Source: an uncultured Clostridia bacterium (GTDB lineage: Bacteria; Bacillota; Clostridia; Christensenellales; Borkfalkiaceae). From it: a DNA stretch of 64,000 nucleotides. Of the stretch, positions 30,562 to 56,770 are shown one piece after another. Positions within the stretch are counted from its first letter, which is position 1, and each line of letters opens with the position of its first letter. The position numbers and the translations under genes were made by a program. The notes beneath the pieces were generated by a model that was not told the origin of the DNA, did no database searches, and saw nothing but the letters and a program-made list of their open reading frames with translations. Where the stretch lies: positions 117,116 through 181,115 of the forward strand of contig CAMWIW010000001.1 of the NCBI GenBank assembly GCA_947174415.1, given 5' to 3'.

Positions 30562-30945
30562 TTACACCTCTAACTGCACGGCGTGGCTTATACAGGGAAT
30601 ACTCTCCCCTTGACCCGACGAAACCGTAGACAAAAGCGCACCCGTTGCCGCAAACAATACCCGCTTATAAAGCCCCGCTTTCATTTTGGTAAGGATATAC
30701 GAGTTCAACACGCTTGCCGAGCAACCCGCGCCGCTGCCGCCCTGAAATTCCTTTTCAATAACCTTATATACTATTTCGCCGCAATCGACGTGGTTTGCCG
30801 AGATGTTATAACCCTTTTCCCAACACAGGTCCTTGACGATACGGCTACCGAGCGCACCCAAATCGCCCGTTAAAATCATATCGTAATCAGTCGGGTCTGT
30901 GCCCGTATCCTTTAAGTGCTGCATTATGGTGTCTGCCGCGGCGGG
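30562..30945 (-). pseudogene. spoVAD: 3' half of interrupted spoVAD (SpoVAD residues about 207-331)
   Basis: Encodes the C-terminal third of SpoVAD, a soluble thiolase-fold protein that binds dipicolinic acid. Recognisable segments: AAADTIMQHLKDTG, MILTGDLGALGSRIV, HVDCGEIVY, GGSGAGCSASVL and VLFAATGALLS. An open frame runs on to a TTG at 30957 inside the element, but the homology begins at APA, exactly at the CCCGCCG core (30939-30945). The N-terminal part is at 56153-56770 on the same strand. I mark it as part of a split gene rather than a decayed one, because precise excision would restore the frame. Confidence 0.93.
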
Positions 30946-30970
30946 GGCGGTTGTCAATTAAACACCATAA
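30921..30970. other. Left attachment junction of the spoVAD element
   Basis: Host half (spoVAD codons) up to the shared core CGGCGGG (30939-30945, plus strand), then the element half ending in ACCATAA (30964-30970). ACCATAA is the inverted copy of TTATGGT at the right end. The proposed crossover dinucleotide is GG at 30944-30945 (CC on the minus strand). Confidence 0.85.
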
Positions 30971-30982
30971 GTTTTTTAGAAA

Positions 30983-31006
30983 AAAAGCGGGATAATCCCG
31001 CTTTTA
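30983..31006 (-). terminator. Terminator of the recombinase gene
   Basis: Minus strand stem AAAAGCGGGAT / ATCCCGCTTTT followed by T-run. It overlaps the recombinase stop and shields the spoVAD 3' half from read-through. Confidence 0.85.
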
Positions 31007-32698
31007 TGCCGTTTCGGAGGAAGCTTTATCCGCAGTTTTATGCTGTCCGATATATTCTTCTGCGGCAAGGAACGCGTCTCTGCACTTTAAGTGGATTTCT
31101 ACTTCCCCGCCCTCGTGAACGAAGATATTTTCAACGAGTTCAATTAAAACGTCTCGCGAAAGCTCCTTTAAACCGCCGTATTTTTTAAATGTTGCAACGA
31201 ACGGATTGCTGCCGTCTACGCCGTTTGCAAAGTTGCGCATTTCTTCCTTTATGCGCGAAATTTCACGCTCTGCGCGGGCAACTGCGTTGCCGTACTTTTC
31301 CTTTAAAGCGAAGTATTGCTCTCTTTCGATTATCCCGCTTTTATAATCGGGGTATAAATCGAGCAAAATCTTTTGCGCCCGTTCGAGTTCTTTTTGGTTG
31401 GAGGAAAGCTCTGCCGAAAGCCGTTTCGACCTCGCGCCCCCTTTTTGCACTCTGTTTATCTTTTCTAAAAGTCTGTCAAAGTCAACGGCAAGCTGAATAT
31501 ATTTGTTGAGAGTTGTTAAAACCGCCTCTTCGAGCACTTCCGCACGGATTGCGTGCTTGGTGCAAAGCGAGCTATGCATTTTACGGTAGGTCGAGCAAAT
31601 ATAATATTCGTACGTTTTATTGGGCTGTTTAACGGTGCGCTTTTGCATAGCTCTGCCGCAATCGGCACACTTCAAAAAGCCCGCAAATACGGATAACTTG
31701 CCCTCCTTTTCGTTGGGGGAAACGCGGGTATCGCGCCTCAACAGCGACTGAACCTTATCAAAATCTTGCTGAGAAATTATGGGCTTATGAGTGCCCTTTA
31801 CCGTTATTCGGTTGCTTTTATCGACTTGTTTCGAAAGATGTATCTTGTAGCTTATGACCTCGTTTTTCTTTTGGACGAGATTGCCGATATAAACCTCGCT
31901 CGTGAGTATTCTTCTGACTGTGGAATCGGTCCACGCACCGCCGTTTTTGCAGGTTGAAATGCGGCGGCAATTAAGTCCCTTTGCCGCTTTGTACTCGGAC
32001 GGGTTGGGAACGCCTCGGGCGTTAAGAGCTCGGGCAACCCCTATTATACTGAAACCCGCTAAAAATTTCTCGTAAATAAAGCGCACGGTTGCGGCGGCTT
32101 CTTCGTCGATAACGAGCTTGTTGTGGTCGCTTTCGTCTTTCTTATAGCCGTAAGCGGCGAAAGAGCCTATAAACTTGCCTTGCTTGCGACGAATGTCGAG
32201 GGCGCTTCTGACTTTTACGGAAATGTCGCGGCAGTATTCGTCGTTAATGATATTTTTGAAAGGCACGATTATATTGTTCATTGTGGACGGTTGAGCGAAG
32301 CTGTCTATGCCGTCGTTAACGGCGATAAAACGGAGTTTGAAAGTGGGAAAAACCACTTCCAAATACTTACCCGCTTCAACGTAATTTCTGCCGAAACGGG
32401 ACAAGTCCTTGACGATTACGCAGTTTATTTTTTTGCTTGCCGCCTCCGAAATCATACGCTGAAAAGCGGGACGTTCGAAGTCCGTTCCGCTGTATCCGTC
32501 GTCGATATAGTATTCGGTCAAGTTAATTTCGGGGTTTTCTGAAACGAACCGCTCTAAAAGAGCTTTTTGCGAGGACACGCTTTCACTCTCTATTTTATCG
32601 CCGTCCTCACGCGAAAGCCTGATATAGAGGCCCGCCTTCCATACTCTTTCGGTATCTCCCGAAATTCGTTGAACGCTGTATTTGCTTGTTCTTGACAT
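31004..32698 (-). CDS. Large serine recombinase of the spoVAD element
   Basis: Site-specific DNA recombinase (564 aa). The resolvase catalytic domain begins with AGLYIRLSREDG, the nucleophile being S29 counted from the chosen start. Then come DLSRFGRNYVE, the Recombinase domain (about 170-290), a zinc ribbon (CADCGRAMQKR followed by YYICSTYRK) and a C-terminal coiled coil. This is the TnpX/skin-Cd recombinase type of clostridia. I start at the ATG at 32698, which has AAAGGTG upstream; the open frame extends 16 codons further without support. It lies about 60 bp inside the element end, the usual place for a gene that integrates and excises its own element. Confidence 0.95.
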   Translation of the reverse strand: MSRTSKYSVQRISGDTERVWKAGLYIRLSREDGDKIESESVSSQKALLERFVSENPEINLTEYYIDDGYSGTDFERPAFQRMISEAASKKINCVIVKDLSRFGRNYVEAGKYLEVVFPTFKLRFIAVNDGIDSFAQPSTMNNIIVPFKNIINDEYCRDISVKVRSALDIRRKQGKFIGSFAAYGYKKDESDHNKLVIDEEAAATVRFIYEKFLAGFSIIGVARALNARGVPNPSEYKAAKGLNCRRISTCKNGGAWTDSTVRRILTSEVYIGNLVQKKNEVISYKIHLSKQVDKSNRITVKGTHKPIISQQDFDKVQSLLRRDTRVSPNEKEGKLSVFAGFLKCADCGRAMQKRTVKQPNKTYEYYICSTYRKMHSSLCTKHAIRAEVLEEAVLTTLNKYIQLAVDFDRLLEKINRVQKGGARSKRLSAELSSNQKELERAQKILLDLYPDYKSGIIEREQYFALKEKYGNAVARAEREISRIKEEMRNFANGVDGSNPFVATFKKYGGLKELSRDVLIELVENIFVHEGGEVEIHLKCRDAFLAAEEYIGQHKTADKASSETA

Positions 32699-32711
32699 AT
32701 GTACACCTTTA

Positions 32712-32734
32712 AAAGCCGTCTTGTAAACGGCTTT
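32712..32734 (-). promoter_or_regulatory. Leader hairpin before the recombinase
   Basis: An 8-bp stem AAAGCCGT / ACGGCTTT in the transcript leader, ending next to the ribosome site AAAGGTG. It could limit translation or act as a weak attenuator; the function is inferred. Confidence 0.45.
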
Positions 32735-32760
32735 AAGGCGATGCACTTTAACGCAATTTC

Positions 32761-32789
32761 ATTTTATAGGAATACTTTTATATTTGCAA
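32761..32789 (-). promoter_or_regulatory. Promoter of the recombinase gene
   Basis: Minus strand TTGCAA (32784-32789), 17-bp spacer, TAAAAT (32761-32766). Looks sigma-A-like; no convincing sigma-E or sigma-G consensus overlaps it. Confidence 0.6.
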
Positions 32790-32794
32790 GAAGT

Positions 32795-33004
32795 TCAGTC
32801 AAATCTGCGGGTGGCAATATTTACCAACAGGTTTTCTACTGCGGGGGCGTTCGCTTTATCCGAAAATACTATTTTTACGGGCGTTTGCTTTACGCGGAAA
32901 CAGTACGGGTTTTTCACGGTTTTTATAAAGCTTGCAAGCCGTTCGGGAACGGTGTTTGCGGTTATTTCTACGGTCGTTATATCAATAAGTTCTTTGTTTG
33001 CCAT
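32795..33004 (-). CDS. Small element-encoded protein, candidate recombination directionality factor
   Basis: A 69-aa hypothetical protein between the glycan operon and the recombinase. It has a weak AAGGGA site upstream of the ATG. Sequence is mixed alpha/beta in character (FIKTVKNPYCFRVKQTPVKI, then APAVENLLVNIA), somewhat like small TnpW-type proteins of clostridial elements. Its position immediately upstream of a serine recombinase, its size and its charge make it the best candidate in the element for an excision factor, but no motif proves this. Confidence 0.55.
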   Translation of the reverse strand: MANKELIDITTVEITANTVPERLASFIKTVKNPYCFRVKQTPVKIVFSDKANAPAVENLLVNIATRRFD

Positions 33005-33043
33005 ATTTGGTTTTTTCCCTTGGCGGGCGTTTTTTATACGGGC

Positions 33044-33074
33044 AAAAAAAGCGGCGGGCTGTTGCCCGCCGCTT
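33044..33074 (-). terminator. Terminator of the 16-gene glycan operon
   Basis: Minus strand stem AAGCGGCGGGC / GCCCGCCGCTT followed by T7, directly after the rfbB stop. Confidence 0.9.
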
Positions 33075-33079
33075 AAATT

Positions 33080-34099
33080 TTACTTATTGCCGTACATTTT
33101 TTTATAATAGTCTTTGTATTCGCCCGTTATTATGGGACGCCACCACGCTTCGTTTTCAAGATACCACTTTATGGTCTTTTGTATACCGTCCGAAAACTTA
33201 GTTTCGGGAAGCCAACCGAGTTCATTATGAATTTTCGCGGGGTCGATAGCGTAGCGCATATCGTGCCCCTTTCTGTCGCCGACGTGTTTTATCAGGCTTT
33301 CGGGCTTGCCCAAGGCTTTGCAAATGAGTTTTACTATGTCGATATTCTTCATTTCGTTATGACCGCCGACGTTGTAGACTTCGCCCACGCGCCCTTTATG
33401 GATTATCAGGTCAATCGCCTTGCAATGGTCCTCTACGTACAGCCAATCGCGGACGTTTATTCCCTCGCCGTACACGGGAAGGTCCTTATCCGCAAGGGCG
33501 TTAATTATCATAAGCGGAATAAGCTTTTCGGGGAAATGATAAGGTCCGTAATTGTTCGAGCAACGGCTAATCGTTACGGGTAAACCGTATGTGCGGTGAT
33601 AGGCAAGCACCAACAGGTCTGCCGAAGCCTTCGAACTCGAATACGGGCTGCTCGTGTGCAGAGGCGTATCTTCGGTAAAGAAAAGGTCGGGTCTGTCGAG
33701 GGGCAAATCGCCGTAAACCTCGTCAGTGGAAACCTGATGATAGCGCTTTACGCCGAACGCGCGGCAAGCGTCCATAAGGGTCGCCGTGCCTAAAATATTG
33801 GTTTTTAAGAAAATTTCGGGGTCTTCGATACTTCTGTCCACGTGGCTTTCCGCGGCGAAATTGACGACTACGTCGGGCTTTTCTTCTTCGAAAAGCTTAA
33901 ATACCGCCGCTCTGTCGCAAATATCCGCCTTGACGAAACGGAAATTCGGATTATCCATTACATCTTTCAAAGTGGAAAGATTGCCCGCGTAAGTGAGCTT
34001 ATCAATGCAGATTATGCGGTAATCGGGGTGGGCTTTGAGCATATGAAAAATGAAATTGCTGCCTATAAAGCCTGCGCCGCCCGTAACTAATACTTTCAT
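33080..34099 (-). CDS. rfbB: dTDP-glucose 4,6-dehydratase
   Basis: Second enzyme of dTDP-L-rhamnose synthesis (339 aa). Extended SDR with the NAD motif TGGAGFIGSNF, catalytic YSSSKAS, and FAAESHVDRSI. Full length. Last gene of the leftward operon; its start overlaps the rfbD stop by 1 nt. The rhamnose would go into the glycan assembled by the rest of the locus. Confidence 0.96.
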   Translation of the reverse strand: MKVLVTGGAGFIGSNFIFHMLKAHPDYRIICIDKLTYAGNLSTLKDVMDNPNFRFVKADICDRAAVFKLFEEEKPDVVVNFAAESHVDRSIEDPEIFLKTNILGTATLMDACRAFGVKRYHQVSTDEVYGDLPLDRPDLFFTEDTPLHTSSPYSSSKASADLLVLAYHRTYGLPVTISRCSNNYGPYHFPEKLIPLMIINALADKDLPVYGEGINVRDWLYVEDHCKAIDLIIHKGRVGEVYNVGGHNEMKNIDIVKLICKALGKPESLIKHVGDRKGHDMRYAIDPAKIHNELGWLPETKFSDGIQKTIKWYLENEAWWRPIITGEYKDYYKKMYGNK

Positions 34100-34971
34100 T
34101 ATCGTAACTCCTTTAAATACCTTTCAAGTGCGGACTGCCACGAAGGCAAACGCTTAAAACCGCCGTTATCGAGCGAGATTTTGCTCATTCTCGAGTTCAA
34201 AGGGCGCTTAGCCTGCTGCGGAACGAGCTTTAAATATTCTTCGGTGGTAACGGGATTGACTTTTACGGTTTTGTTTGCAAGCTTAAAAATTTCCACGGCA
34301 AAATCGTACCAACTGCAAACGCCCTCGTTAGTGGCGTGATAAACGCCGAATTTATCAGTTTCGAGCATATCGCAGAGCAATTTCGATAAATCGTACGTGT
34401 AAGTCGGCGAACCGATTTGGTCGCAAACGACGTTAAGCTCGGTTATGCCCGCGTCCGCAAGGCGCAACATAGTTTTAACGAAATTGTTGCCGTTTTTTCC
34501 GAACACCCACGAAACGCGGACGATAAAGTATTTTTCAAGGGTATTGATTACGAAATCTTCCCCTTGCGCTTTGGTTTTTCCGTAAACGGAAAGTCCGGAT
34601 TTTGTATCGTCCGTATCGTAATAATTTTCGCCTGTGCCCCCGAAAACGTAGTCGGTGGAAATATATATTAGCTTTGCATTTACGGCTTTACAGGCTTCGG
34701 CGATATATTTAACTCCCAAAGCGTTTACTTTGTAGACTTCTTCGGGTAGCTCTTCGGCCTTGTCAACCGCCGTCCACGCGGCGTTATGCATAACTGCGTC
34801 CGGCTTGTATTCTTCTATAAATTTTTTAACTGCGGCTTCGTCGGTGATATCCAAATCGTCATAGTCAATTCCGCTAACCGAGGTATAGCCCCTCTCTTTT
34901 AGCTCGCGTACGCAGTCGTATCCGAGTTGCCCCTTTACGCCCGTAACGAGTATTTTCATTTTTTTAGGCAT
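34099..34971 (-). CDS. rfbD: dTDP-4-dehydrorhamnose reductase
   Basis: Last step to dTDP-L-rhamnose (290 aa). N-terminal ILVTGVKGQLGYDCVREL, the ISTDYVFGG motif and YGKTKAQGE with the catalytic Tyr/Lys. Lies 8 bp downstream of rfbC. All four rhamnose genes (A, C, D, B) are contiguous. Confidence 0.95.
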   Translation of the reverse strand: MPKKMKILVTGVKGQLGYDCVRELKERGYTSVSGIDYDDLDITDEAAVKKFIEEYKPDAVMHNAAWTAVDKAEELPEEVYKVNALGVKYIAEACKAVNAKLIYISTDYVFGGTGENYYDTDDTKSGLSVYGKTKAQGEDFVINTLEKYFIVRVSWVFGKNGNNFVKTMLRLADAGITELNVVCDQIGSPTYTYDLSKLLCDMLETDKFGVYHATNEGVCSWYDFAVEIFKLANKTVKVNPVTTEEYLKLVPQQAKRPLNSRMSKISLDNGGFKRLPSWQSALERYLKELR

Positions 34972-34979
34972 ATCGCACC

Positions 34980-35540
34980 TTAAAATTCTATTTTGCTTTC
35001 ATTAAGCGTGGGGTGAAGTTTGTCCTTTTCGGATAAAATCACTTCGCCTTCAAACGGCCACTCTATTCCTATTTCAGGGTCGTTCCAAAGAATCCCGCCC
35101 TCATCCTCGGGGTGGTAAAGCTCGTCGCACTTATAAGCGAAGGTTGCGGTGTCAGAGAGCACTACGAAGCCGTGAGCAAACCCGCGGGGGATCATAAACT
35201 GTCTGTTGTTCTCGGCTGAAAGAAGCGCGCCCGTCCACTTACCGTACGTTTTGCTGCCCCGTCTTAAATCGACGGCGACGTCGTAAACCTCGCCTTCGAG
35301 CACGCGCACGAGCTTGGCCTGCGGATAATTCTTTTGGAAATGCAAGCCCCTTAAAACGCCCATTTTCGATTTGGACTGATTGTCCTGAACGAATTTATAG
35401 TTTAAACCCGCTTTATTGTAATCCTCTTCCTTGTAGGTTTCCATAAAATAGCCGCGGTTGTCGCCGTAAAGCTTTGGTTCTATTATAAATACGCCCTCTA
35501 TCTCCGTTTCGTAAAAAGAGAAATTGCCGACTGTTTTCAT
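34980..35540 (-). CDS. rfbC: dTDP-4-dehydrorhamnose 3,5-epimerase
   Basis: Cupin epimerase (186 aa). FIIEPKLYGDNRGYFMETYK, FVQDNQSKSKMGVLRGLHFQ and the catalytic His region are canonical. The open frame extends upstream inside rfbA, but the ATG at 35540, which overlaps the rfbA stop (TAATG), gives the normal length and was chosen. Confidence 0.95.
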   Translation of the reverse strand: MKTVGNFSFYETEIEGVFIIEPKLYGDNRGYFMETYKEEDYNKAGLNYKFVQDNQSKSKMGVLRGLHFQKNYPQAKLVRVLEGEVYDVAVDLRRGSKTYGKWTGALLSAENNRQFMIPRGFAHGFVVLSDTATFAYKCDELYHPEDEGGILWNDPEIGIEWPFEGEVILSEKDKLHPTLNESKIEF

Positions 35541-36424
35541 TAATATAATATCCTCTCTTCCAACACTTTTAAAAGATGTTGTCCGTATTGGTTCTTCTTC
35601 ATAAGCTCGGCTTGCTTTTTCAGCTCTTCTGCCGTTATCCAACCGTTCTTGTAAGCGATTTCTTCAAGGCAACCTATCTTTAAACCCTGATGCTCCTCAA
35701 TCATTTTGACGAAAGCTGAAGCATCTGCCAAAGACTCGTGCGTGCCTGTGTCGAGCCATGTAAAGCCTCTGCCGAATGTTACCACGTTGAGTTTATCTTT
35801 ACTTAAATATATTTGGTTTACGCTCGTTATTTCAAGCTCGCCGCGGGGCGAGGGTTTGACGCTTTTTGCGATTTTTACGACCTCGTTCGTGTAAAAATAC
35901 AGTCCGACAACGGCGTAATTCGACTTGGGGTTTTCGGGTTTTTCTTCAATGGAAACGGCTTTACCGTGGGCATCGAACTCTACTACGCCGAAGCTTTCAG
36001 GGTTTTCGACGTAATACCCGAACACCGTTGAATATCCGTTTTTCACGTTTTCAACTGCGTGTTGCAAGTTCTTTTTAAATCCGTTACCGTAGAAAATATT
36101 ATCGCCCAAAACCATACAGATGTCGTCGCCGCCTATAAACTTTTCACCGATTATAAAAGCCTGTGCAAGTCCGTCGGGCGAGGGCTGAACGGCGTAGCTT
36201 AAATTGAGACCGAACTTTTTGCCGTCTCCCAAAAGGCTTTGAAAGCGCGGCGTATCGTCGGGGGTAGATATTATGAGTATATCCCTTATCCCCGCAAGCA
36301 TAAGCGTGGAAAGCGGATAATAAATCATTGGCTTATCGTATATGGGCAGAAGCTGTTTGCTTGTTACCATAGTCAACGGATACAGACGCGTTCCGCTGCC
36401 GCCCGCAAGTATTATTCCTTTCAT
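35540..36424 (-). CDS. rfbA: Glucose-1-phosphate thymidylyltransferase
   Basis: Makes dTDP-glucose (294 aa), first step of the rhamnose pathway. [18 protein letters not shown] is the nucleotide-binding start and [18 protein letters not shown] follows. Typical length of the short RmlA group. Overlaps the flippase stop by 4 nt. Confidence 0.96.
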
Positions 36425-37914
36425 ACCTCGCTCTCCTTATCTTCCGTTTGATTGGCTTCTTCCGACGCAACTTCCTGCGCCACTTCCGCAACGGGAACGG
36501 ATTTTCGTTTAAATACTTTTCTGAATAAATTTATTATGGATTTATAGTTTATTGCCGCGTAGACTGCGAAAACGCCGCAATAAACGGCAAGCCCTATCCA
36601 TAGACTTAAAAGCGTTGCGCATAGTATAAACGCAACCGTCATAACTGCTTCTATGATAAAATCTTTAATTATTTTTACGTGTATCGTTTTTAAAACGCAG
36701 ATTTCCGAAAGAACGGAATTGAGCATAATTACGAAAACGACGCAACCGAGCATTGCCGTCAGATTATCGAAAACGAACGCGCAAAGGGTAAACAATACTG
36801 CGCCCACCGCTATTGAAATTGCATTGACAAGCAGCATTAACTTTTCTTTGCGGTAAACCTTTAAATAGTTGTTTGTAAGCAAACTTACCTTTGACGAAAA
36901 TATGATTATGGGAAGGAAAATTCCAAGATAGTACAGTGATATTTCGTAGTCAGGCAGCCACATCTTCAATAACCAACTGCCGACAAAATAAAATATCATC
37001 ATAAAAAACAGTAACGGCGATAAAATGCCTCTTATCGTTTTGTACATAGAGGGTAGCTTTTCTTGGTCTATTCGTTTTAACGACGGAAAAAGAACCACGC
37101 TTATTGCCGTAACGAACACGAGGAAAACGTTCGATACGTTGAACGAAAATGACACTTTCCCGAACACCAACTCGTCCCAATGCCACTGCACTATCATTTT
37201 TGCGCTGCCTATCATAAGCATTGCCGACCAGTTAGCCAGCATCAGAATTATGCCCGCTAAAACGTTGACTTTCAGCTCTTTAAACGCCTCTTTTAAAGGG
37301 ATAGCTTTACCAAAAAACAGCCCCTTGTTAAAGATTACGCCTATAACTATTCCCACTGCGTCGCCGCATAAATCGGCTACGCAATACCAAATAAAATCGT
37401 TGACTTTACACGCAATTAAAACGACGACCACAAGTCCGTAAGTGAGTCTTTGGGCAATCGTTAAAATGACGTATTTGTTTATTCTGTTTGTTATTTGGAG
37501 CATGTAGGAACTGTAAGTTACGAGGTTTTTCGTAACAATTCCCACGGCAACTAAAATGAAAATAATTTCAAGGGGCGCGCCCAACGCAAGCAATGAAACC
37601 GCTGTGGTTATAAGCGTTATCGCGCTCGTAAAAATGAGCAGAATTATAAACTGCGAGCGCAGGCGGGCTTTGTCGAGCTCTTCGTAATCGAACTTTGAAT
37701 ACCTTAAAACCAACCCGTCCAAAAGACCGAAATGCAATACGCCGACGTAGCCCACGTACAGTATGTACGTCTGCCAATAGGAATACTGAAATTTGTCAAT
37801 ATATTTTGGCAAAATAAGCGTCAAAACGAAGCTTACCGCCAAAGATATTATTTGCGCAACGATTGACATTACAACGTTTTTCGCAAATTTTTTTGTCGTT
37901 ATAGTTTCTGCCAT
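36421..37914 (-). CDS. Wzx-type polysaccharide flippase
   Basis: Polytopic membrane protein (497 aa) with about 12-14 hydrophobic helices, starting [20 protein letters not shown], of the oligosaccharidyl-lipid flippase (MATE/MOP) superfamily. It ends in a charged cytoplasmic tail rich in Glu. It would move the undecaprenyl-linked repeat unit across the membrane before polymerisation by the Wzy proteins in this locus. Sequence gives the family, not the repeat-unit specificity. Confidence 0.88.
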
Positions 37915-37935
37915 AGTTTGTTAAAGTAAGTGTAA

Positions 37936-38580
37936 TCAGGAGAAAAACCGCTCTTCCAACATTAAACAAAGTGTGTGATAAACGGGCAAATGCAATTCCT
38001 GTATCATATACGTTTCCGTGGACGGAACTTTTATAGCAACGTCCGAAACGGTTGAGAGCTCGCCGCCCTTTGCACCCGTTAAGCCTATTACTTTAAGCCC
38101 CATTGCACGCGCGACGACCGTTGCGTTCAACACGTTTTTCGAATTGCCCGAAGTCGATATTCCGAGGAAAACGTCCCCCGCCATTCCGTAACCGTAGACT
38201 TGTTGGGCATACGTTAAAAGTCCGCCGCCCGAAACGTCGTTTATAAACGCCGTATTGAGCGCCTGATGTCCGTTCAAAGCTATTGCAGGCAAGCCGCCTT
38301 GAAGGCTTTCGGCAAGCTCCGTGCCTCTGTTTTCGTCTACCTTCTTCAATTTTTCGGCAAACTGGGCGGAGCATTTGCGTTTAAGCTTGAAGCCTTTCAT
38401 AAGCTCGCCCACGATATGTTCTGCGTCGGCGCAGCTTCCGCCGTTGCCCGCTATTAAAAGCTTATTGCCGTTTAAAAAACATTCTTCAAGGATATTATAG
38501 GCTTTTATTATATCTTCTTTGCATACGGCGAGCGCGGGATAACGCTCGGTTAGCAATCCGATATGCTTTTGCAAGTCCAT
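37936..38580 (-). CDS. gmhA: Sedoheptulose-7-phosphate isomerase
   Basis: SIS-domain isomerase (214 aa) that starts ADP/GDP-heptose synthesis. Visible are LLIAGNGGSCADAEHIVGEL, the GISTSGNSKNVLNA phosphosugar loop and the C-terminal HLPVYHTLCLMLEE. Directly followed upstream in transcription by the other three GDP-heptose enzymes, which fixes the role. Confidence 0.93.
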   Translation of the reverse strand: MDLQKHIGLLTERYPALAVCKEDIIKAYNILEECFLNGNKLLIAGNGGSCADAEHIVGELMKGFKLKRKCSAQFAEKLKKVDENRGTELAESLQGGLPAIALNGHQALNTAFINDVSGGGLLTYAQQVYGYGMAGDVFLGISTSGNSKNVLNATVVARAMGLKVIGLTGAKGGELSTVSDVAIKVPSTETYMIQELHLPVYHTLCLMLEERFFS

Positions 38581-38582
38581 AA

Positions 38583-39872: not shown

Positions 39873-39873
39873 G

Positions 39874-40887: not shown

Positions 40888-40899
40888 TTTATTCCCCTA

Positions 40900-41892: not shown

Positions 41893-41895
41893 CTG

Positions 41896-42648: not shown

Positions 42649-42661
42649 TGCACCGCTCCTA

Positions 42662-43990: not shown

Positions 43991-44009
43991 TTGCTCTATC
44001 TAATTAACC

Positions 44010-46592: not shown

Positions 46593-46593
46593 A

Positions 46594-48485: not shown

Positions 48486-48516
48486 AATCTCTTCCGTGAA
48501 CCCGTAATTAATAATA

Positions 48517-48546
48517 ATTATAATATAATTATTCTATCATATGCAA
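48517..48546 (-). promoter_or_regulatory. Promoter of the 16-gene glycan operon
   Basis: Minus strand TTGCAT (48541-48546), 18-bp spacer, TATAAT (48517-48522); about 32 bp before the aminotransferase ATG. Confidence 0.6.
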
Positions 48547-48615
48547 GCATAAAAATCAAGCGTTGTTAAAGGTTTTAATATAAGTATGCGCAATAAATCA
48601 AATGATAATTTCACC

Positions 48616-48644
48616 TTGACTTTTTGTGGCGGTTGAATTATACT
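48616..48644 (+). promoter_or_regulatory. Promoter of the divergent polymerase/ligase gene
   Basis: TTGACT (48616-48621), 17-bp spacer, TATACT (48639-48644), 8 bases before an ATG. Confidence 0.65.
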
Positions 48645-48652
48645 TATCCTGT

Positions 48653-50092: not shown

Positions 50093-50106
50093 ATTATAAA
50101 TTGCAT

Positions 50107-50147
50107 AACAAAACGGCTTTCGCAAACTGCGAAAGCCGTTTTGTTAG
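50107..50147. terminator. Bidirectional terminator between the ligase gene and the CapD-type gene
   Basis: An 18-bp perfect stem (AACAAAACGGCTTTCGCA and complement) with a 3-nt loop between convergent genes. Confidence 0.9.
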
Positions 50148-51977
50148 TTAGTTTTGAGGTTTATAAGTTGTTACGAGCTGTGCAACGAGGTTTTTCATAT
50201 CGGGCGTTTCGTCATAAGCCGCTTTTTTGAGTTTGTCGAGCGTCGCCCACAGATGCTCTTCGTCAAGCTCGATAGGATTAGCTATATTGATTAAACCGTT
50301 GGGGGTCTTTTGCATACCCTCCTCGTCCATTAATCTTTCTTCATAAAGCTTTTCGCCGGGGCGTAAACCCGTGCATTTTATCTCGATGTCCACGTCAGGT
50401 TCAAGCCCTGAAAGCTTTATAAGATTATATGCTAAATCGTAGATTTTTACGGGTTCGCCCATATCGAGGACGAAAATTTGTCCGCCTTGAGCGTAAGCGC
50501 CTGCCTGCAAAACGAGGGAAACCGCCTCAGGTATTGTCATAAAGTATCTGATTATGTCCTTATGCGTTACCGTTACAGGTCCGCCCTCAGCTATCTGCTT
50601 TTCGAAAAGAGGAATAACCGAACCGTTAGAACCGAGAACGTTACCGAACCTGACGGCAACGAACTTAGTCTGTTTACTGTGCTTTCCTATGGTTTGGATA
50701 ATCATTTCACAGATACGTTTGGTCGCGCCCATTACGTTGGTGGGATTGACGGCTTTATCGGTGGAAATTTGTACGAACACCTTAGAACCGAATTTGTCTG
50801 CGCAACGCGCCATATTCAAAGTGCCGAAGACGTTGTTTTTAACCGCCTCGTTGGGGCTTGTTTCCATTAACGGAACGTGTTTATGCGCTGCGGCGTTAAA
50901 CACTATTTCGGGCGAGTATTTTTTAAATACGTCCTCCATTTTACCGACGTCCCTCACGCTCGCAATCAGCGTAAGAAGATTTAACTCGGGGTGGCGGCGT
51001 TTAAGCTCCTGCTCTATATCGTATGCGTTATTTTCGTAAATATCGAGGATTATAAGCTGTCTCGGAGAATGGGTCGCTATTTGGCGACAAAGCTCACTGC
51101 CTATCGAGCCGCCTCCGCCTGTAACCAACACGACGCGGTCTTCAATATAGCCCATAATTTCGTCGAGATTGACTTTTATCTGGTCTCTGCCCAAAAGGTC
51201 GGAAATCTGAACCTCTCTTAAAGCGGTTACGCTTGCGTCGCCGTTAACTATCTGATAGATACCGGGAAGAGTTTTTACCTTACAGCTTGTATTTTCGCAG
51301 ATACCGTAAATGCGCTTTATATCAGCCTTGGGAACGGACGGCATTGCTATTAATATTTCGTCGATGCCGTATTTTTCAACGAATTCGGGGATACGCTCAG
51401 TACCGCCTACTATTTTTACGTTGTATATGTTTTTGCCTATTTTATTCGGGTCGTCGTCGATTACGCAGACAGGGTGATAAGTTATTTTGTCGGTTGTAAG
51501 TATTTCCCTTATAAGCATAGTACCGGCATTGCCGCCGCCGACTATCATTGCCCTGACTTTACTTTTATTCTTCCTTGAAACGGAATATTTTACGGCAACG
51601 TAGAGTCGCTTCGAAAACCTTATAAGCAGCACGAAAACCGTCAATAAAATCGCGTAAGCGCCGCAGACGCGGATATCAATCAGATTAAAAATAAACGAAA
51701 AACCGATATTAGCGGCAAATATACACGCGACCGCACCCACCGTTTTAAGCGTGTCAACTATGCCTACCGACGTAAATACGATAAAGTATAGTCTGAACAG
51801 AGCAAAGAATAAGTATCCGATTAAGAGATTTAACAGATACCAATACAGCAGGTCAAGACAAAAATCAACCGCACTGTTCGCAATTAAAAGCGACAGCAGA
51901 ACAGACAGCGTTATTGCGGCGAAATCGCAGGCGGCGATAATGCCTATTTCTTTAATTTTCTTATATTTGTTTTTCAT
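50148..51977 (-). CDS. CapD/PglF-type NDP-sugar 4,6-dehydratase, membrane-anchored
   Basis: A 609-aa protein: four N-terminal membrane helices (about 10-120), a first Rossmann-like domain (AMIVGGGNAGTMLIREIL), then the SDR catalytic domain (VVLVTGGGGSIGSELCRQI, FNAAAHKHVPLMETS, ISTDKAVNPTNVMGATKR). Full-length members convert UDP-GlcNAc to a UDP-4-keto-6-deoxy sugar. With the DegT aminotransferase and the initiating transferase this predicts an amino-dideoxyhexose as first sugar of the glycan. Downstream of glmS by about 30 bp. Confidence 0.93.
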   Translation of the reverse strand: MKNKYKKIKEIGIIAACDFAAITLSVLLSLLIANSAVDFCLDLLYWYLLNLLIGYLFFALFRLYFIVFTSVGIVDTLKTVGAVACIFAANIGFSFIFNLIDIRVCGAYAILLTVFVLLIRFSKRLYVAVKYSVSRKNKSKVRAMIVGGGNAGTMLIREILTTDKITYHPVCVIDDDPNKIGKNIYNVKIVGGTERIPEFVEKYGIDEILIAMPSVPKADIKRIYGICENTSCKVKTLPGIYQIVNGDASVTALREVQISDLLGRDQIKVNLDEIMGYIEDRVVLVTGGGGSIGSELCRQIATHSPRQLIILDIYENNAYDIEQELKRRHPELNLLTLIASVRDVGKMEDVFKKYSPEIVFNAAAHKHVPLMETSPNEAVKNNVFGTLNMARCADKFGSKVFVQISTDKAVNPTNVMGATKRICEMIIQTIGKHSKQTKFVAVRFGNVLGSNGSVIPLFEKQIAEGGPVTVTHKDIIRYFMTIPEAVSLVLQAGAYAQGGQIFVLDMGEPVKIYDLAYNLIKLSGLEPDVDIEIKCTGLRPGEKLYEERLMDEEGMQKTPNGLINIANPIELDEEHLWATLDKLKKAAYDETPDMKNLVAQLVTTYKPQN

Positions 51978-52008
51978 TGATTTTTTCCGATTTTTTGTAA
52001 ATTTATTT

Positions 52009-53838
52009 TTATTCGACGGTTACGCTCTTTGCCAAATTTCTCGGCTTGTCCACGTCGTTACCCCTCAAAACGCTGAGATAGTACGCGAAGAACTGCAACG
52101 GAATTACCGCAAGGCTTGCCGCAAACCGCTCGTCGGTTTCGGGTATACGCAATACAAAGTCAAGCCCTTTTTCCGGAAGGGTAATTCCCTCCGACGCAAC
52201 CGCAGCTATCAAAGCTCCGCGGCTTGCCGTTTCAACTAAATTGCTAAGCGTTTTTTCTGCAAGCTTTTTTTGAGTTAAGACACCGAAAACGAGCGTCCCG
52301 TTTTCGATAAGGCTAATCGTACCGTGTTTAAGTTCGCCAGCAGCGTAAGCCTCGGAATGGATATAACTTATTTCTTTAAGTTTCAGGCTTCCCTCTACGC
52401 TTACCGCATAGTCAACGCCCCTTCCGATAAAAAAGACGTCCTTTTTATCCATAGTTTTTGCGGCGAACTTTTGAATTTGTTCCTTTTGGGACAATAAAAG
52501 CTCCAACTTTTCGGGAAGAGCGCTCAGCTCTTTAAGAAGCTTTGAATATTCGTTATCTTCAATAGTTTTGCGGATTTTTGCTAATTTTAATGCAAAAGTA
52601 TAGCCCGCAACAAGCTGTGCGCTGTACGCCTTAGTCGTAGCAACCGAAATCTCCGGTCCTGCCTTAGTGTAGAAAACGTAGTCGGCTTCGCGCGCAATTG
52701 ACGAGCCTACGACGTTAACTATTGCAAGCGTTTTAAGCCCCGCTTCCTTTGCCGCCCTTACCGCCGCAAGAGTATCCGCGGTTTCGCCGCTTTGGCTTAT
52801 TGCGATAACGAGTTCGCCGTTTACAACGGGGTTACGGTATCTGAATTCGGAGGCAAGCTCTACCCGTACGGGCACGCGCGCCAAATCTTCGGTTACGTAC
52901 TGCATAACCAAACCGACGTGATAAGCCGAGCCGCACCCGACAATTATAAGTCCGTTTATTTTTTTGAAATCTTTATCTGAAAGCCCCACTTCTGAAAAAC
53001 CGAGGTTTCCGTTCTGATAAATATAATTTACAGTATCTTTTACGACTTTGGGCTGTTCGTGAATTTCTTTGAGCATAAAATGCTCGAATCCGCCCTTTTC
53101 GGCCGCTTCGGCATCCCACGTGATTTTGACAATTTCTTTTTCGACTTCTTCCCTGTCAAGATTAAAGAAGGTAACCCCGCCCCTTTCAAGGCGAGCTATC
53201 TGAAGATTGTCAACGTAGTAAACGCTTTTGGTATATTTTAAAATTGCGGGAACGTCCGAAGCAAGGTACGCCGCGCCGCCCGCAACTCCGATTATCATCG
53301 GGCTATCCTTGCGGATTGCAAAAACGGTTTCCGGGAAGTCCTTATATATAACCGCCAAAGCGTACGAACCGCGCACCCTTAACGCGAATTCGGATATAGC
53401 CCTTAAAGGGTCTCCGTACTTTTTGTAATAGTAGTCCACGAGCTTCGTGGCGACTTCCGTGTCCGTTTGTGAATAGAATTTATATCCGCGCTTTATAAGC
53501 TTTTCTTTAAGTTCGGCGTAATTTTCAATTATTCCGTTGTGAACGGCCGCAATGGTCTTTTCGTCGTTGCAATGGGGGTGAGCGTTGTTTTCACTCGGCT
53601 CGCCGTGAGTCGCCCAACGGGTATGACCTATGCCGCAAGTACCTTTCACCGCCTTGCCGCCGTCCGTCATTTCGTACAGAACCTTTAATCTGCCCTTTGC
53701 CTTTACGATGTCGATATCACCCGCGTTCAAAAGGGCAATACCCGCGGAATCGTAACCTCTGTATTCTAATTTTTTAAGCCCGTCAAGGAGAATGGGCGCT
53801 GCTTGTTCTTTACCTATATAACCGACGATACCGCACAT
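52009..53838 (-). CDS. glmS: Glutamine-fructose-6-phosphate aminotransferase
   Basis: Makes glucosamine 6-phosphate (609 aa). The N-terminal glutaminase has the nucleophile Cys2 (MCGIVGYIG) and HTRWATHGEP; two SIS domains follow (VGCGSAYHVGL, AISQSGETADTL), and the end is PRNLAKSVTVE. Complete. I see no glmS ribozyme upstream: only about 10 bp separate it from glmM. Remarkable for lying inside an apparently excisable element; the host probably has another copy. Confidence 0.97.
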   Translation of the reverse strand: MCGIVGYIGKEQAAPILLDGLKKLEYRGYDSAGIALLNAGDIDIVKAKGRLKVLYEMTDGGKAVKGTCGIGHTRWATHGEPSENNAHPHCNDEKTIAAVHNGIIENYAELKEKLIKRGYKFYSQTDTEVATKLVDYYYKKYGDPLRAISEFALRVRGSYALAVIYKDFPETVFAIRKDSPMIIGVAGGAAYLASDVPAILKYTKSVYYVDNLQIARLERGGVTFFNLDREEVEKEIVKITWDAEAAEKGGFEHFMLKEIHEQPKVVKDTVNYIYQNGNLGFSEVGLSDKDFKKINGLIIVGCGSAYHVGLVMQYVTEDLARVPVRVELASEFRYRNPVVNGELVIAISQSGETADTLAAVRAAKEAGLKTLAIVNVVGSSIAREADYVFYTKAGPEISVATTKAYSAQLVAGYTFALKLAKIRKTIEDNEYSKLLKELSALPEKLELLLSQKEQIQKFAAKTMDKKDVFFIGRGVDYAVSVEGSLKLKEISYIHSEAYAAGELKHGTISLIENGTLVFGVLTQKKLAEKTLSNLVETASRGALIAAVASEGITLPEKGLDFVLRIPETDERFAASLAVIPLQFFAYYLSVLRGNDVDKPRNLAKSVTVE

Positions 53839-53847
53839 ACCTTGTCC

Positions 53848-55236
53848 TCAATTCCGAGTATAGCCTTTTTCTCTCATAACGGAAATTATTTCTTCTGTGA
53901 AAGTTTTGCAGGTTTCCTTGCTTTCCGCCTCTACCATCACTCTTATAACGGGCTCTGTGCCCGAAGGTCTAACGAGAATTCTCCCTACACCCTCTAACTT
54001 CTTTTCCGCTTTTTTGACTGCGGCGGAAACGGCTTTGTCGTTCAAAACCTTTTCTTTATCGTCAACTCGGACGTTTACAAGCTCCTGCGGATAGAACTTA
54101 ACGGGTTCGGAAAGCTTCGAAAGGGGTAACTTCTTTGCCATAATAACTTCCATTATCTTTAAGCTCGTAAGTATTCCGTCTCCCGTCGTCGCGTACTTCG
54201 AAAAGATTATATGACCCGACTGCTCTCCACCGAGCCTGTTACCGTGCGCGGACATATACTCGTAAACGTATCTGTCGCCAACCGCCGTCTTCTCGTAATT
54301 TATACCAACCTCGTCCAAAGCCTTGAAAAAGCCAAAATTAGACATGACGGTAGCAACTACCGTATTGCCCAAAAGTTTACCGCGCTCTTTCATATATAGC
54401 CCGTAAATATACAGGATATGGTCGCCTGTAACAACGTTACCCTTTTCGTCAACGCAAAGACATCTGTCAGCGTCGCCGTCGTAGGCAAAGCCTACGTCAA
54501 GGTTATTGTCTTTAACAAGCTTCTGCAAGCCCTCGATATGAGTAGAGCCTGCGTTCTCGTTAATATTAAATCCGTCGGGCTGAGCGTTTATAACGTAAGT
54601 AGTTGCTCCGAGAGCCTCAAAAACGGACTTTGCAATATTCCAAGCACTGCCGTTTGCGCAATCGAGACCGACTCTCATTCCGCGGAAAGAATACATTCCG
54701 AGGGAAATCAAATATCCGATATAACGGTTTCTGCCCGAAGAAAAATCGACCGTTTTGCCTATTTTCTCCCTTGTAGCGTAAGGAAGCGTTTCCCACTTCT
54801 TTCCGAAAATTTCGAGTTTGCCGTCGAGAAAATCTTCAATAAGAGAAACCGTGTCCTCGTCCATTTTCTCGCCGTGGGAATTTAGAAGCTTAATACCGTT
54901 GTCGTAATAAGGGTTGTGGCTTGCGGAAATCATTATTCCGCAGTCGAACCCGTCCACCCTTGCGATATACGCAACCGACGGCGTTGTGGTAACGTGAAGC
55001 ATATATGCGTCCGCTCCGGACGCAGTAAGCCCAGCAACGAGAGTATACTCGAACATATAGCTCGACCTTCTCGTGTCTTTACCGATAACGACTTGGGGGG
55101 CGGAATTATCGCCTTTTTGTCTTTTAAGCTCCCCGTAATACCAGCCGAGAAATCTCCCGACTTTATATGCGTGGTCGGCGGTAAGCGTAGCGTTTGCCTC
55201 CCCTCTGAAACCGTCCGTACCGAAATATCTGCCCAT
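53848..55236 (-). CDS. glmM: Phosphoglucosamine mutase
   Basis: Converts GlcN-6-P to GlcN-1-P (462 aa). N-terminal RYFGTDGFRGEAN, phosphoserine loop ISASHNPYYDNG (about S106), metal loop DGDADR and sugar loop GGEQSGHI. The ATG at 55236 with AAGGAGAA was chosen over a longer frame to 55323 because it starts exactly at the family N-terminus. Between the hexapeptide transferase gene and glmS. Confidence 0.93.
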   Translation of the reverse strand: MGRYFGTDGFRGEANATLTADHAYKVGRFLGWYYGELKRQKGDNSAPQVVIGKDTRRSSYMFEYTLVAGLTASGADAYMLHVTTTPSVAYIARVDGFDCGIMISASHNPYYDNGIKLLNSHGEKMDEDTVSLIEDFLDGKLEIFGKKWETLPYATREKIGKTVDFSSGRNRYIGYLISLGMYSFRGMRVGLDCANGSAWNIAKSVFEALGATTYVINAQPDGFNINENAGSTHIEGLQKLVKDNNLDVGFAYDGDADRCLCVDEKGNVVTGDHILYIYGLYMKERGKLLGNTVVATVMSNFGFFKALDEVGINYEKTAVGDRYVYEYMSAHGNRLGGEQSGHIIFSKYATTGDGILTSLKIMEVIMAKKLPLSKLSEPVKFYPQELVNVRVDDKEKVLNDKAVSAAVKKAEKKLEGVGRILVRPSGTEPVIRVMVEAESKETCKTFTEEIISVMREKGYTRN

Positions 55237-55264
55237 AATTCTCCTTTTCTTAGGTAATGCAAAC

Positions 55265-55918
55265 TTAATTCTTTTTAACTGTTTTTCCGCCCGTCTTGAA
55301 AATACTGTTTTCGGGTATAACACCCCGTATGCAAGACAACGGATAAACGCTTACGTTTCTGCCGATAACCGTTCCCGGATTTAATACGCTGTTGCAACCG
55401 ACTTCTGTGAAGTCGCCGACCAGCGCGCCCAACTTTTTCAAACCCGTTTTTATCTCTGTATCGCCGCCTTTGACCGTAACGGGCGTTTTATCGGACTTGA
55501 CGTTTGAAGTTATAGCTCCCGCGCCCAAATGGGCTTTAAAGCCCAAAATAGAGTCGCCGACGTAGTTGTAGTGCGGAACTTGCACACCGTCGAACAAAAT
55601 TACGTTTTTTAGCTCGGTTGAATTACCCACGACGCAACCGTTGCCGATAAGCGCACTGCCGCGAACGAACGCGCAGTGTCTGACTTCGGTATTTTCGCCA
55701 ACGATGCAAGGTGCGCCCAAATAAGCCGTAGGCGCGATTTTAGCACTTTTATGAACCCATACGCAAGGCGCAATTTCTTCGTACCCGCAGTCAAGGCTTC
55801 TTCCTAAGCCGATTATAAATTCTTTAAGACCGCTCAACGCTTGCCACGGATACTCGAATTTCATAAGGTAATCCGCAGCCAAGGAGTGAGTTAAGTCAAA
55901 CAAATCGCACATTTTCAA
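55265..55918 (-). CDS. Left-handed beta-helix (hexapeptide) acyltransferase, GlmU C-terminal-like
   Basis: A 217-aa protein. The first 50 residues are alpha-helical, followed by hexapeptide repeats (APTAYLGAPCIVGENTEVRH onward) and a C-terminal GRNVSVYPLSCIRG. It lacks a pyrophosphorylase domain. In an operon with glmM and glmS it most likely acetylates glucosamine 1-phosphate or a related amino sugar. The related nucleotidyltransferase-linked bacterial acyltransferases are alternatives. Confidence 0.8.
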   Translation of the reverse strand: MKMCDLFDLTHSLAADYLMKFEYPWQALSGLKEFIIGLGRSLDCGYEEIAPCVWVHKSAKIAPTAYLGAPCIVGENTEVRHCAFVRGSALIGNGCVVGNSTELKNVILFDGVQVPHYNYVGDSILGFKAHLGAGAITSNVKSDKTPVTVKGGDTEIKTGLKKLGALVGDFTEVGCNSVLNPGTVIGRNVSVYPLSCIRGVIPENSIFKTGGKTVKKN

Positions 55919-55967
55919 GTAATAGCTCCCTGAAAAGTTTATTTAACTATTATATATGCCGTTAATT

Positions 55968-55996
55968 ATTTTAACGCTAACAGCTCGCAAAGTCAA
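55968..55996 (-). promoter_or_regulatory. Promoter of the acyltransferase-glmM-glmS-capD operon
   Basis: Minus strand TTGACT (55991-55996), 17-bp spacer, TAAAAT (55968-55973), about 50 bp before the first start. Confidence 0.7.
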
Positions 55997-56131
55997 CAAA
56001 TAACGACGGCTAAATATCCGATTTTACTCGTTTAAGCCAAATGAAAGGCGTCTAAACTAAATTGCGGCTTCCTCATCGTCTTTTTGTTTTTTTGCGTTAA
56101 AGTGTTTAGGTTGCCGCGTATTTCACGCCCG

Positions 56132-56182
56132 TTATGGTTCTATTATAGCAACGGCGGGCGCCATTGCCGCCCCCATATTGTT
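56132..56182. other. Right attachment junction of the spoVAD element
   Basis: The element half starts at TTATGGT (56132-56138) and leads to the shared core CGGCGGG (56152-56158), then host spoVAD codons. The TAA inside TTATGGT (minus strand) ends the truncated reading frame. GG at 56157-56158 is the proposed crossover dinucleotide. Confidence 0.85.
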
Positions 56183-56770
56183 TACGTCGGTTACGCCGAA
56201 ATCGCATACCTTGCCCATCGTGCCGCTGACGATTTTAATACCTTTCTTCTCCGAAGAAACAACGCAACCGCCCGCAGCAGTAACCGTCCATTGCGATTGC
56301 GGGGGACGGGTACAACCGAGCTCCAAAGGATAACGGTACTGTCTTTCAGCCGAGGCGAAGTGGCTGCCCGTTGCGGCAACGACCCTGTTAACGTAGCCCG
56401 CATCGACGAGCATTGCGCCTAAAAGCAAGCTTTCACTCATAGTCGAGCAAGCCGAGTACAGACCGAGGAACGGGAAGTTATAGTCTCTTGCGGCAAAGCT
56501 TGCCGAAATGATTTGGTTTAACAAATCACCCGAAAAAAGAAGGTCTATATCGTCTTCTTTATAGCCTCCCTTTTCTATTGCGAGAGAAATCGCCGTGGAA
56601 AGCATCTTGCATTCAGCCTTTTCAAAAGTGCTCTCTTCGAACATATCATCGTCCAGAGCAATGTCAGCAAACTTGCCGAGAACGCCCTGCTTTTCCTTAG
56701 TTCCGCATACGGCGGCAAAAGATGTTATGCAGGGAGAATTTTTAAAAAATACGGTGTTACCTTTTTTCAT
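56132..56770 (-). pseudogene. spoVAD: 5' half of interrupted spoVAD (SpoVAD residues 1-206)
   Basis: Encodes the first two thirds of SpoVAD: TVFFKNSPCITSFAAVCGTK, DDIDLLFSGDLLNQIISASF, GLYSACSTMSESLLLGAML and TVTAAGGCVVSSEKKG, up to MGAAMAPA. It then runs into six element-encoded residues (VAIIEP) and a stop at 56132. SpoVAD should be about 335 aa, so the fragment by itself lacks part of the thiolase fold and is probably inactive. No internal frameshift or stop is seen. Together with 30562-30945 it makes 331 codons. Confidence 0.94.

Follow-up and report, generated by a model that had tools for sequence, protein, structure and literature searches.

Sporulation genes that are interrupted by a DNA element and rebuilt by its excision are known from several spore-forming bacteria, and the closest described systems are outlined here for comparison with an island found in spoVAD, a spore channel gene, in the window (the whole 64,000 nt stretch of DNA analysed, from an uncultured gut member of the Clostridia). 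The skin element of sigK (Bacillus subtilis, Clostridioides difficile) resembles the spoVAD island in its internal serine recombinase, in splitting a sporulation gene, and in the precise, in-frame rejoining of that gene. In C. difficile the skin recombinase is described as constitutive and as acting with a directionality factor, and excision as confined to the terminal mother cell (PMC5025042). SP-beta, in spsM of B. subtilis, also shares the serine recombinase, an att core common to both ends and the rebuilding of a sporulation gene, but it is an active prophage that is excised in the mother cell only, a confinement by which its authors explain the stability of the element (PMC4191935). In that case the insert is a phage and the split gene a polysaccharide gene; in spoVAD the insert is a polysaccharide locus and the split gene belongs to a spore channel. 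The gin element in gerE of Bacillus cereus is an intervening element of non-phage type, equipped with serine recombinases and with the accessory factor GirX (PMC5595907). The yin element in yabG of Clostridium botulinum is prophage-like, and was called unique by its authors, to their knowledge (PMC10747680); breaks at the spoVAD site are seen in 17 species of a single genus and also in other groups.

The spoVAD island differs from these systems first in the compartment concerned. Whereas sigK is a mother-cell gene, rejoined in a terminal cell, and gin and yin split genes with a link to sigma-K, the mother-cell factor, spoVAD can be assigned to the forespore by analogy with C. difficile, where expression of spoVAC-AD-AE is sigma-G-dependent and takes place in the forespore (PMC3789822). 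It also differs from skin in having glycan cargo, a predicted junction promoter and a covarying leader. Circle-junction promoters are known from TnpX of Tn4451/Tn4453 (Lyras and Rood 2000, as cited in PMC13023037), and state-dependent promoters from ICEclc and ICEKp1 (PMC13023037). The likeness to Tn4451 lies in a promoter that serves only on the excised circle, which in the spoVAD element is predicted from sequence; the difference is that the Tn4451 type of promoter drives the recombinase/integrase gene, whereas the spoVAD version would first transcribe a short leader whose sequence is complementary to that of the recombinase transcript.

A 2022 survey of large serine recombinases gives competence genes, magnesium chelatase and prolyl isomerase among the targets, and its main text names no spoVA gene. 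No published description of an element in spoVAD was found among the papers listed by the literature searches, mainly freely readable ones. Developmental excision by a serine recombinase, XisF, is also known for the fdxN element of cyanobacterial heterocysts; as heterocysts are terminal cells, that element needs no reintegration, unlike what is proposed for the spoVAD element. The recombinase of the window scores 99.9 bits with the XisF model, short of that model's cut-off of 375.

The split gene in the source genome

In the source genome (1.59 Mb, 40 contigs, 95.65% complete) spoVAD is interrupted after codon 206 by 25.2 kb, and the N-terminal and C-terminal parts (N-half and C-half) lie on the same strand, in order, between spoVAC and spoVAE:

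56827–57276, minus strand: spoVAC, upstream neighbour of the split gene (PF03862, 9.2e-39; TIGR02838 above its cut-off)
56132–56770, minus strand: open reading frame (ORF) of the spoVAD N-half, 206 native codons (56153–56770) followed by 6 codons of element DNA (PF07451 positions 3–206, 1.1e-82)
30562–30938, minus strand: spoVAD C-half (ORF listed as 30562–30957; PF07451 positions 201–329, 9.8e-51)
30171–30560, minus strand: spoVAE, downstream neighbour (PF03862, 2e-30; best NCBIfam match TIGR02839 spore_V_AE, 125.3 bits, just below its cut-off of 131.1)

The coordinates, strand, order and identities of these genes had been proposed in the original prediction from the letters alone, and were borne out by the Pfam and NCBIfam matches together with direct reading. 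Reading of both junctions also confirmed the sequence CCCGCCG said to lie at each break (plus strand, 56152–56158 and 30939–30945), and the halves, joined in codon register, give the expected frame of 331 aa. A large serine recombinase is indeed the first gene inside, its ORF (31004–32746) adjoining the C-half. The 95.65% complete assembly, when searched, contained no other copy of spoVAD, intact or otherwise. The element therefore splits a sporulation gene whose frame is restored when the flanks are joined, and it carries its own site-specific recombinase, of predicted activity, as well as an att core at both ends. It is considered probable (about 70%) that this recombinase would cut the 25.2 kb island out precisely, likely in the forespore, and so rebuild spoVAD.

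Recurrence of the break in the genus

The genus was sampled with 93 genomes, 81 of them with spoVAD. The gene is full length in 62 and broken at the same place in 17, no different breakpoint being seen in these relatives; in another two (G010 and G011) it is apparently cut at contig ends. Both halves were found in 13 of the split genomes, the N-half only in one and the C-half only in three, and where both share one contig (5 genomes) the insert measures 8 to 27 kb. In the 30 intact loci that were fetched from the genus the frame passes through the site without an insert, in agreement with the predicted in-frame joining. The residues there are MAPAAAD, as in the joined window gene, in 16 of these loci and differ after MAPA in 14, and in one intact locus (L007) the DNA at the site is nearly identical to the joined window. 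Since the frame runs through in 30 intact loci while 17 of 81 genomes break at this point, the split site is more than chance. A recombinase of the spoVAD type (60–100% identity, E ≤ 1e-100) was present in 12 of the 17 split genomes but in none of the 62 intact ones (Fisher test, p = 1.2e-10, leaving out G010 and G011 because of the contig ends). In the remaining five split genomes, in which this recombinase was not found, the element never lies on a single contig.

A class-wide sample of 243 genomes gave a spoVAD match in 187. Among the matches listed, the best match fell in the range of a half gene only for the source genome, G000 (1.1e-82), and for G252 (1.8e-75), which on match strength among those listed is a split candidate only; traces alone (1e-5 to 1e-3) were seen in G156, G214, G339 and G354. 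By this rough measure the split is rare in general and frequent in this genus.

Age of the island and selection on the halves

Between four species of the genus (G000, G029, G056 and G060), the synonymous divergence of the island genes for the recombinase, glmS, glmM, acetyltransferase and capD is of about the same order as that of spoVAC, both spoVAD halves, spoVAE and yunB. The halves themselves have dS (synonymous divergence) values of 0.36–1.05 and ratios of nonsynonymous to synonymous divergence (dN/dS) of 0.01–0.07. Read most simply, these figures indicate that the island was already at this place before the four species parted and was inherited vertically.

Across the split genomes the median dN/dS is 0.089 for the N-half (14 sequences, 45 of 91 pairs) and 0.086 for the C-half (16 sequences, 62 of 120 pairs), as against 0.159 and 0.104 for the corresponding parts of the gene in intact genomes; pairs with dS of at least 1.5, at most 0.05 or saturated were left out. 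The compared codons of the 14 N-halves and 16 C-halves include no stop codon. By these comparisons both halves are under purifying selection, as constrained as in intact genomes, and regular rejoining is the simplest explanation of a split that is long-lasting and yet under strong constraint. SpoIVA was found in 14 of the 17 split genomes, with a fragment in G055 and none in G006 and G008. Since many members of the genus keep spoVAD yet are without SpoIVA, sporulation is unevenly kept in the genus.

Attachment ends and a promoter predicted for the excised circle

The ends of the element carry the following features:

56132–56174, minus strand: attL, the junction of N-half and element, core CCCGCCG at 56152–56158 (direct reading, 14 split loci compared; limits drawn from conservation)
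30928–30970, minus strand: attR, the junction of element and C-half, core CCCGCCG at 30939–30945 (direct reading, 16 split loci compared; limits drawn from conservation)
30952–30957, minus strand: TTGACA, −35 of the predicted circle-only promoter (from the attR sites)
56142–56147, minus strand: TATAAT, −10 of the predicted circle-only promoter (from the attL sites; putative activity)

The attR hexamer is present in 16 of 16 genus sites (TTGACA in 15, TTGACC in 1) and the attL hexamer in 14 of 14 (TATAAT in 9, TATTAT in 4, TAAAAT in 1), the latter in a fixed codon register. In 12 of the 13 genomes for which both ends are available, the joined circle would separate the two by 17 bp (6 computed, the rest read off). 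Because the −35 place in attL is taken by a GCGGCA-like hexamer and the two promoter halves sit on opposite ends of the island, a consensus promoter would exist only on the excised circle, and it is likely that circularisation joins the −35 of attR and the −10 of attL into a promoter TTGACA-17-TATAAT. The arms TTATGGT/ACCATAA of the window form an outer inverted repeat of the joined site.

Leader region and recombinase transcript

Just inside attL lies a region with a counterpart at the start of the recombinase transcript:

56040–56131, minus strand: predicted leader or small RNA just inside attL, 3′ limit undefined (by eye in 13 leaders)
56092–56104, minus strand: leader segment CACTTTAACGCAA, complementary to the 5′ end of the recombinase mRNA (covariation over 14 elements)
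32744–32756, minus strand: 5′ segment TTGCGTTAAAGTG of the recombinase mRNA, complement of the leader, directly after a −10-like TATAAA at 32763–32768 (transcript start predicted)

By eye, a conserved stretch extends from about 35 to 75 nt from the core inside attL and is followed in most genus leaders by a Shine-Dalgarno-like AAGGAGG, with no evident ORF; the corresponding stretch of the window leader is weak. Rfam gave no family match on 30000–58000. A conserved leader fold is not claimed, as RNAalifold on 12 leaders returned no consensus structure.

In seven representative elements of the genus, leaders and transcripts of the same element pair better than nearly all swapped combinations, only 4 of 5040 permutations being as good for segment A and 8 of 5040 for segment B. 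The windows of this test were set after the motif was seen; in a second test, of 14 elements and with wide windows, the score of own pairs was 213.5 against a permutation mean of 140.5 (standard deviation 9.1), and 0 of 200,000 permutations were as good. G000, G029 and G060, near-copies of G056, were left out of the permutation tests. The seven elements from other taxa have a complementary pair of 9 to 23 bp at the same two places, made of other sequences, and in G117 another segment scores slightly above the pair. In co-folding of leader and transcript, 15 of 17 elements gained more than 0.05 in the accessibility predicted for the ribosome site and start when the own leader was present. For 13 distinct elements (G000, G029, G060 and G093 excluded) the mean predicted gain was 0.21 with the own leader, 0.03 with shuffled and 0.06 with foreign leaders (Wilcoxon p = 0.0009 and 0.0085). 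The covarying pair suggests RNA control of a large serine recombinase, in which the pairing and its activating sign are both model predictions.

Another explanation of these segments is quite possible, though short of even odds: they may be inverted copies of a protein operator, or the leader may be an antisense repressor rather than an activator. The recombinase copy lies near the predicted transcription start, a usual place for an operator, and antisense control of transposases is known. Several results fit an activating leader poorly. Segments A and B of the genus elements cannot, in order, form one continuous duplex. With wide windows 8 of the 14 elements have their own partner as the top scorer of the row, and the strongest match in G070 and G117 lies elsewhere than at the start of the transcript. 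Several elements show little or no gain in accessibility: there is none in G057 and G052; in G007 and G029 shuffled or foreign leaders perform comparably; in G056 foreign leaders average nearly the same; and in the window's own element the gain is small (0.07), with 5 of 13 foreign leaders as good. Operator copies or a repressor are opposed, however, by the near-complete change of sequence between distant elements with complementarity kept (up to 23 bp), by the excess of the own leader in the 13-element means, and by G104, in which two neighbouring segments of 12 and 8 bp pair co-linearly and their blocking is predicted to open the start hairpin.

Genes of the element and its cargo

The window element has 23 predicted genes, namely the recombinase, a DUF6870 protein and a 21-gene polysaccharide-biosynthesis locus:

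31004–32698, minus strand: large serine recombinase (ORF listed from GTG 32746; start likely at ATG 32698, from the invariant M17; PF00239, PF07508, PF13408; phrog_95 integrase, 1.2e-108)
32795–33004, minus strand: DUF6870 protein of 69 aa, candidate recombination directionality factor or regulator (PF21757, 8.4e-15; putative function)
33080–55918, strand unassigned: glycan/capsule cargo, 21 genes (Pfam and NCBIfam matches)
55968–55996, minus strand: putative promoter of the glycan operon, sigma-A-like (TTGACT-17-TAAAAT), some 170 bp inside attL (by eye; similar in 9 of 13 genus leaders)

Relatives of the DUF6870 protein stand beside the recombinase in many loci; its structural model (mean predicted local distance difference test score 82.8) had no fold match in the PDB at E ≤ 0.001. 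The cargo comprises genes for an acetyltransferase, GlmM, GlmS, a CapD/FlaA1-like protein, a Wzy-like protein, PglE/PglC-like proteins, glycosyltransferases, LicD, an IspD-like protein and an epimerase, as well as heptose-type genes, a flippase-like gene and rmlA, C, D and B. Among them are genes of UDP-GlcNAc type, of dTDP-rhamnose and of heptose type, and one for a polymerase-like protein. Two of the 23 genes, encoding the flippase-like protein of 497 aa and a cargo protein of 442 aa, had no Pfam match at the limits used. As the glycan operon has a sigma-A-like promoter of its own, it need not rely on the junction promoter. Pfam matches among the 23 genes included no phage structural or replication gene and no relaxase or conjugation gene, and the seven element proteins that were searched against PHROGs gave matches only to integrase, which is an invertase family as well, and to a single family without known function. 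Judged by this gene content, the element is not a prophage.

Cargo was read through in the islands of the window, G057, G052 and G070. The 8.3 kb island of G057 holds only acetyltransferase-glmM-glmS-capD, DUF6870 and the recombinase, and those of G052 and G070 hold other large glycan loci (all by eye). Relatives of glmM, glmS and capD are also found inside the islands of G029, G056 and G065. Element-type glmM is also seen away from spoVAD, in split genomes (G070, for example) as well as in relatives whose spoVAD is intact, and so the cargo is exchangeable. The source genome has a second glmS-glmM pair (G000:C9:4202-7331, L067), with 42% and 55% identity to the island copies and one TGA inside the glmM match. 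The idea that the cargo is essential was dropped, given these second copies of the island's glmS and glmM.

The wider family of spoVAD-linked recombinases

When 84,980 species genomes were scanned with an alignment of the recombinase, 457 relatives were obtained, and the best 80 of them were analysed. Among these 80 of 457, a spoVAD half is present on the fetched stretch in 40, at 26 bases to 7.5 kb from the recombinase; 16 have less than 2.5 kb downstream, and 24 have no half. In 37 genomes chosen by the analyst from the 80 loci, both halves were found in 29 (the N-half of G129 in two pieces), the N-half only in 2, the C-half only in 3, the C-half plus a full-length gene in 2 and an intact gene only in 1. 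Hosts include Intestinimonas, Oscillibacter, Candidatus Fimimorpha, Candidatus Gallimonas and Lachnospiraceae. In the recombinase tree, 40 of the 41 spoVAD-linked rows fall in one supported set of 59 rows, together with 10 rows without spoVAD and 9 truncated ones.

Read by eye, the cargo of the family can be as small as one receptor-like gene (4.7 kb, G104) or as large as that of a 53 kb element resembling an integrative and conjugative element (ICE) in G117, with a galactose-use locus (G098) in between. The island of G098 (HAN096; L238 and L239) carries an AraC-like regulator, a sugar ATP-binding cassette transporter, a beta-galactosidase-like gene and galK/galE/galM-like genes. The spoVAD element of G117 (Lachnospiraceae UBA7054; L233–L235), one stretch of which consists of unknown letters, has ParA/ParB-, VirD4-, methylase- and relaxase-like ORFs, and it is possible that it gives a picture of the ancestor of the islands. 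At the same site in G120 is an element with plasmid-like remnants (again by eye).

Some loci depart from the usual layout. In L141, from a termite-gut member of the Clostridia, the N-half (2854–2219, minus strand) and spoVAC point away from the plus-strand recombinase and C-half on the same contig, which represents either an inversion or an assembly fault. In L155 and L182 the recombinase adjoins and faces the N-half, the reverse of the usual arrangement; these may represent a second recombinase lineage or a flipped attP using the same site. Tandem pairs of large serine recombinases precede the spoVAD C-half in L146, L147, L163, L164, L166, L167, L171 and L173. Related tandem pairs without a spoVAD match on the fetched stretch occur, for example, in L158, L161, L187 and L196, and more distant ones (41–46%) in G071, G076 and G088. 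A tandem pair of this Clostridia family was also seen on a contig binned as Phocaeicola (Bacteroidota; L160), probably by a binning error.

Proposed mechanism and its alternatives

If excision serves a spoVAD expressed in the forespore, as in C. difficile, it must take place in the line that becomes the spore and must later be reversed; so much follows from where the gene acts. It would then be required in the very compartment that passes its chromosome on, so that the stability logic of mother-cell excision fails for it, and long vertical inheritance of an element in a forespore gene implies reintegration. By this analogy, excision probably occurs in the spore-forming cell rather than in the dying mother cell. 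The original prediction had read the island as a developmentally excised element of the skin/sigK and SP-beta/spsM kind; a precise, recombinase-borne element in 17 species, with halves under purifying selection, upholds the first part of that reading, while the mother-cell analogy needs correction.

A full cycle can be sketched. In vegetative cells the island would stay in place, its sigma-A-like promoter driving the glycan operon. When spoVAC and the spoVAD N-half are transcribed under sigma-G in the forespore, read-through across attL would produce the leader RNA, which would pair with the recombinase mRNA, expose its ribosome site and raise the level of recombinase. Together with a directionality factor, for which the DUF6870 protein is a candidate, the recombinase would recombine attL with attR, releasing the island and joining spoVAD in frame. 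On the circle, the joined ends (TTGACA-17-TATAAT) would produce the same leader and keep the recombinase on, favouring reintegration into spoVAD at or after germination, by which the island would be kept in the germ line. In this scheme spoVAD would be a self-mending germ-line gene, in which transcription of the broken gene in the forespore triggers its repair through the leader RNA and the circle promoter brings about the return at germination: a family-wide, reversible, RNA-triggered DNA splice that couples a sugar coat to a spore channel. Taken as a whole, this self-mending reading is judged possible but less likely than not.

A number of observations tell against excision in the forespore or against steps of this cycle. 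No sporulation sigma promoter was identified before the recombinase, where the promoter looks sigma-A-like by eye, and inspection of 14 loci revealed no clear sigma-G site upstream of spoVAC; the forespore assignment of spoVAD is itself borrowed from C. difficile. Two split genomes (65% and 83% complete) are without SpoIVA. The promoter spacing would be 18 bp in G069, and several distant attR sites are without TTGACA. No mention of DUF6870 was found in the literature searched. Excision products were sought as well: an attP pattern allowing up to 2 mismatches had no match in the 93 genus assemblies, in a search that had no positive control and whose pattern fits the window's reconstructed attP by inspection; a stricter pattern had none in viral contigs; and 3 phage-collection records and 32 viral-collection loci with relatives of the recombinase displayed no terminal repeat and no circle.

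These records and loci contributed one promoter-like match, in L276, which is without a spoVAD match, and two contigs with recombinase and spoVAD C-half (L252 and L253). Two further candidates were rejected. At attL of G029 a contig overlap of 52 bp, considered as a possible trace of mixed states, does not end at the core. In Candidatus Agathobaculum pullistercoris (L139/L202), where a paralogue or an excised allele was considered, a split-type C-half is 92% identical to a full-length copy in the same bin, and hence not the same allele; the bin likely holds two co-binned relatives, with and without the element. L140 and L203 have no alignable DNA in common.

The alternative to regular forespore excision that survives best is an ordinary integrative element at a hot-spot attB, excised at low frequency for its own transfer and with no link to the spore, the rare excised cells being those that sporulate. 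This is judged rather unlikely. It would account for the same-site relatives, including the ICE-like G117 and the plasmid-remnant G120, for the spread of the family over the Clostridia and for the sigma-A-like look of the recombinase promoters. It is harder to reconcile with the window element, whose 23 genes include no transfer gene, with the 8.3 kb element of G057, in which none was seen by eye, or with divergence in the G000 clade that fits vertical inheritance; moreover, if only rare excisants sporulate, the spore bottleneck removes the element unless it is reintegrated.

It appears improbable that excision takes place in the mother cell or ahead of asymmetric division, on the pattern of skin and SP-beta, or that the halves act as separate polypeptides. 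The known elements, as far as the cited passages go, do lie in mother-cell-expressed or sigma-K-linked genes (sigK, spsM, spoVFB, spoVR, gerE, yabG), but joining in the mother cell would not serve a gene expressed in the forespore, as spoVAD is in C. difficile, and by eye the C-half is without a clear start or ribosome site of its own. Lastly, a dead insertion, by which the island inactivated spoVAD in lineages no longer needing it and left decaying remnants, would suit the failure to find an excision product in genus assemblies or viral contigs and the many genus members without SpoIVA despite spoVAD, but is very improbable given halves free of stop codons and as constrained as in intact genomes, the like divergence of element and flanks in four species (dN/dS 0.01–0.07), SpoIVA in 14 of 17 split genomes, and a conserved recombinase and att ends.

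Implications

If regular excision in the forespore is true, a split forespore gene under selection across species would break the mother-cell rule and require the element to be excised and reintegrated in the course of its passage through the spore, and it would become testable how a mobile element escapes loss at the spore bottleneck. For gut Clostridia, calls of sporulating or non-sporulating that rest on an intact spoVAD can fail where the gene is split. Variable glycan loci would, moreover, be tied to the spore programme.

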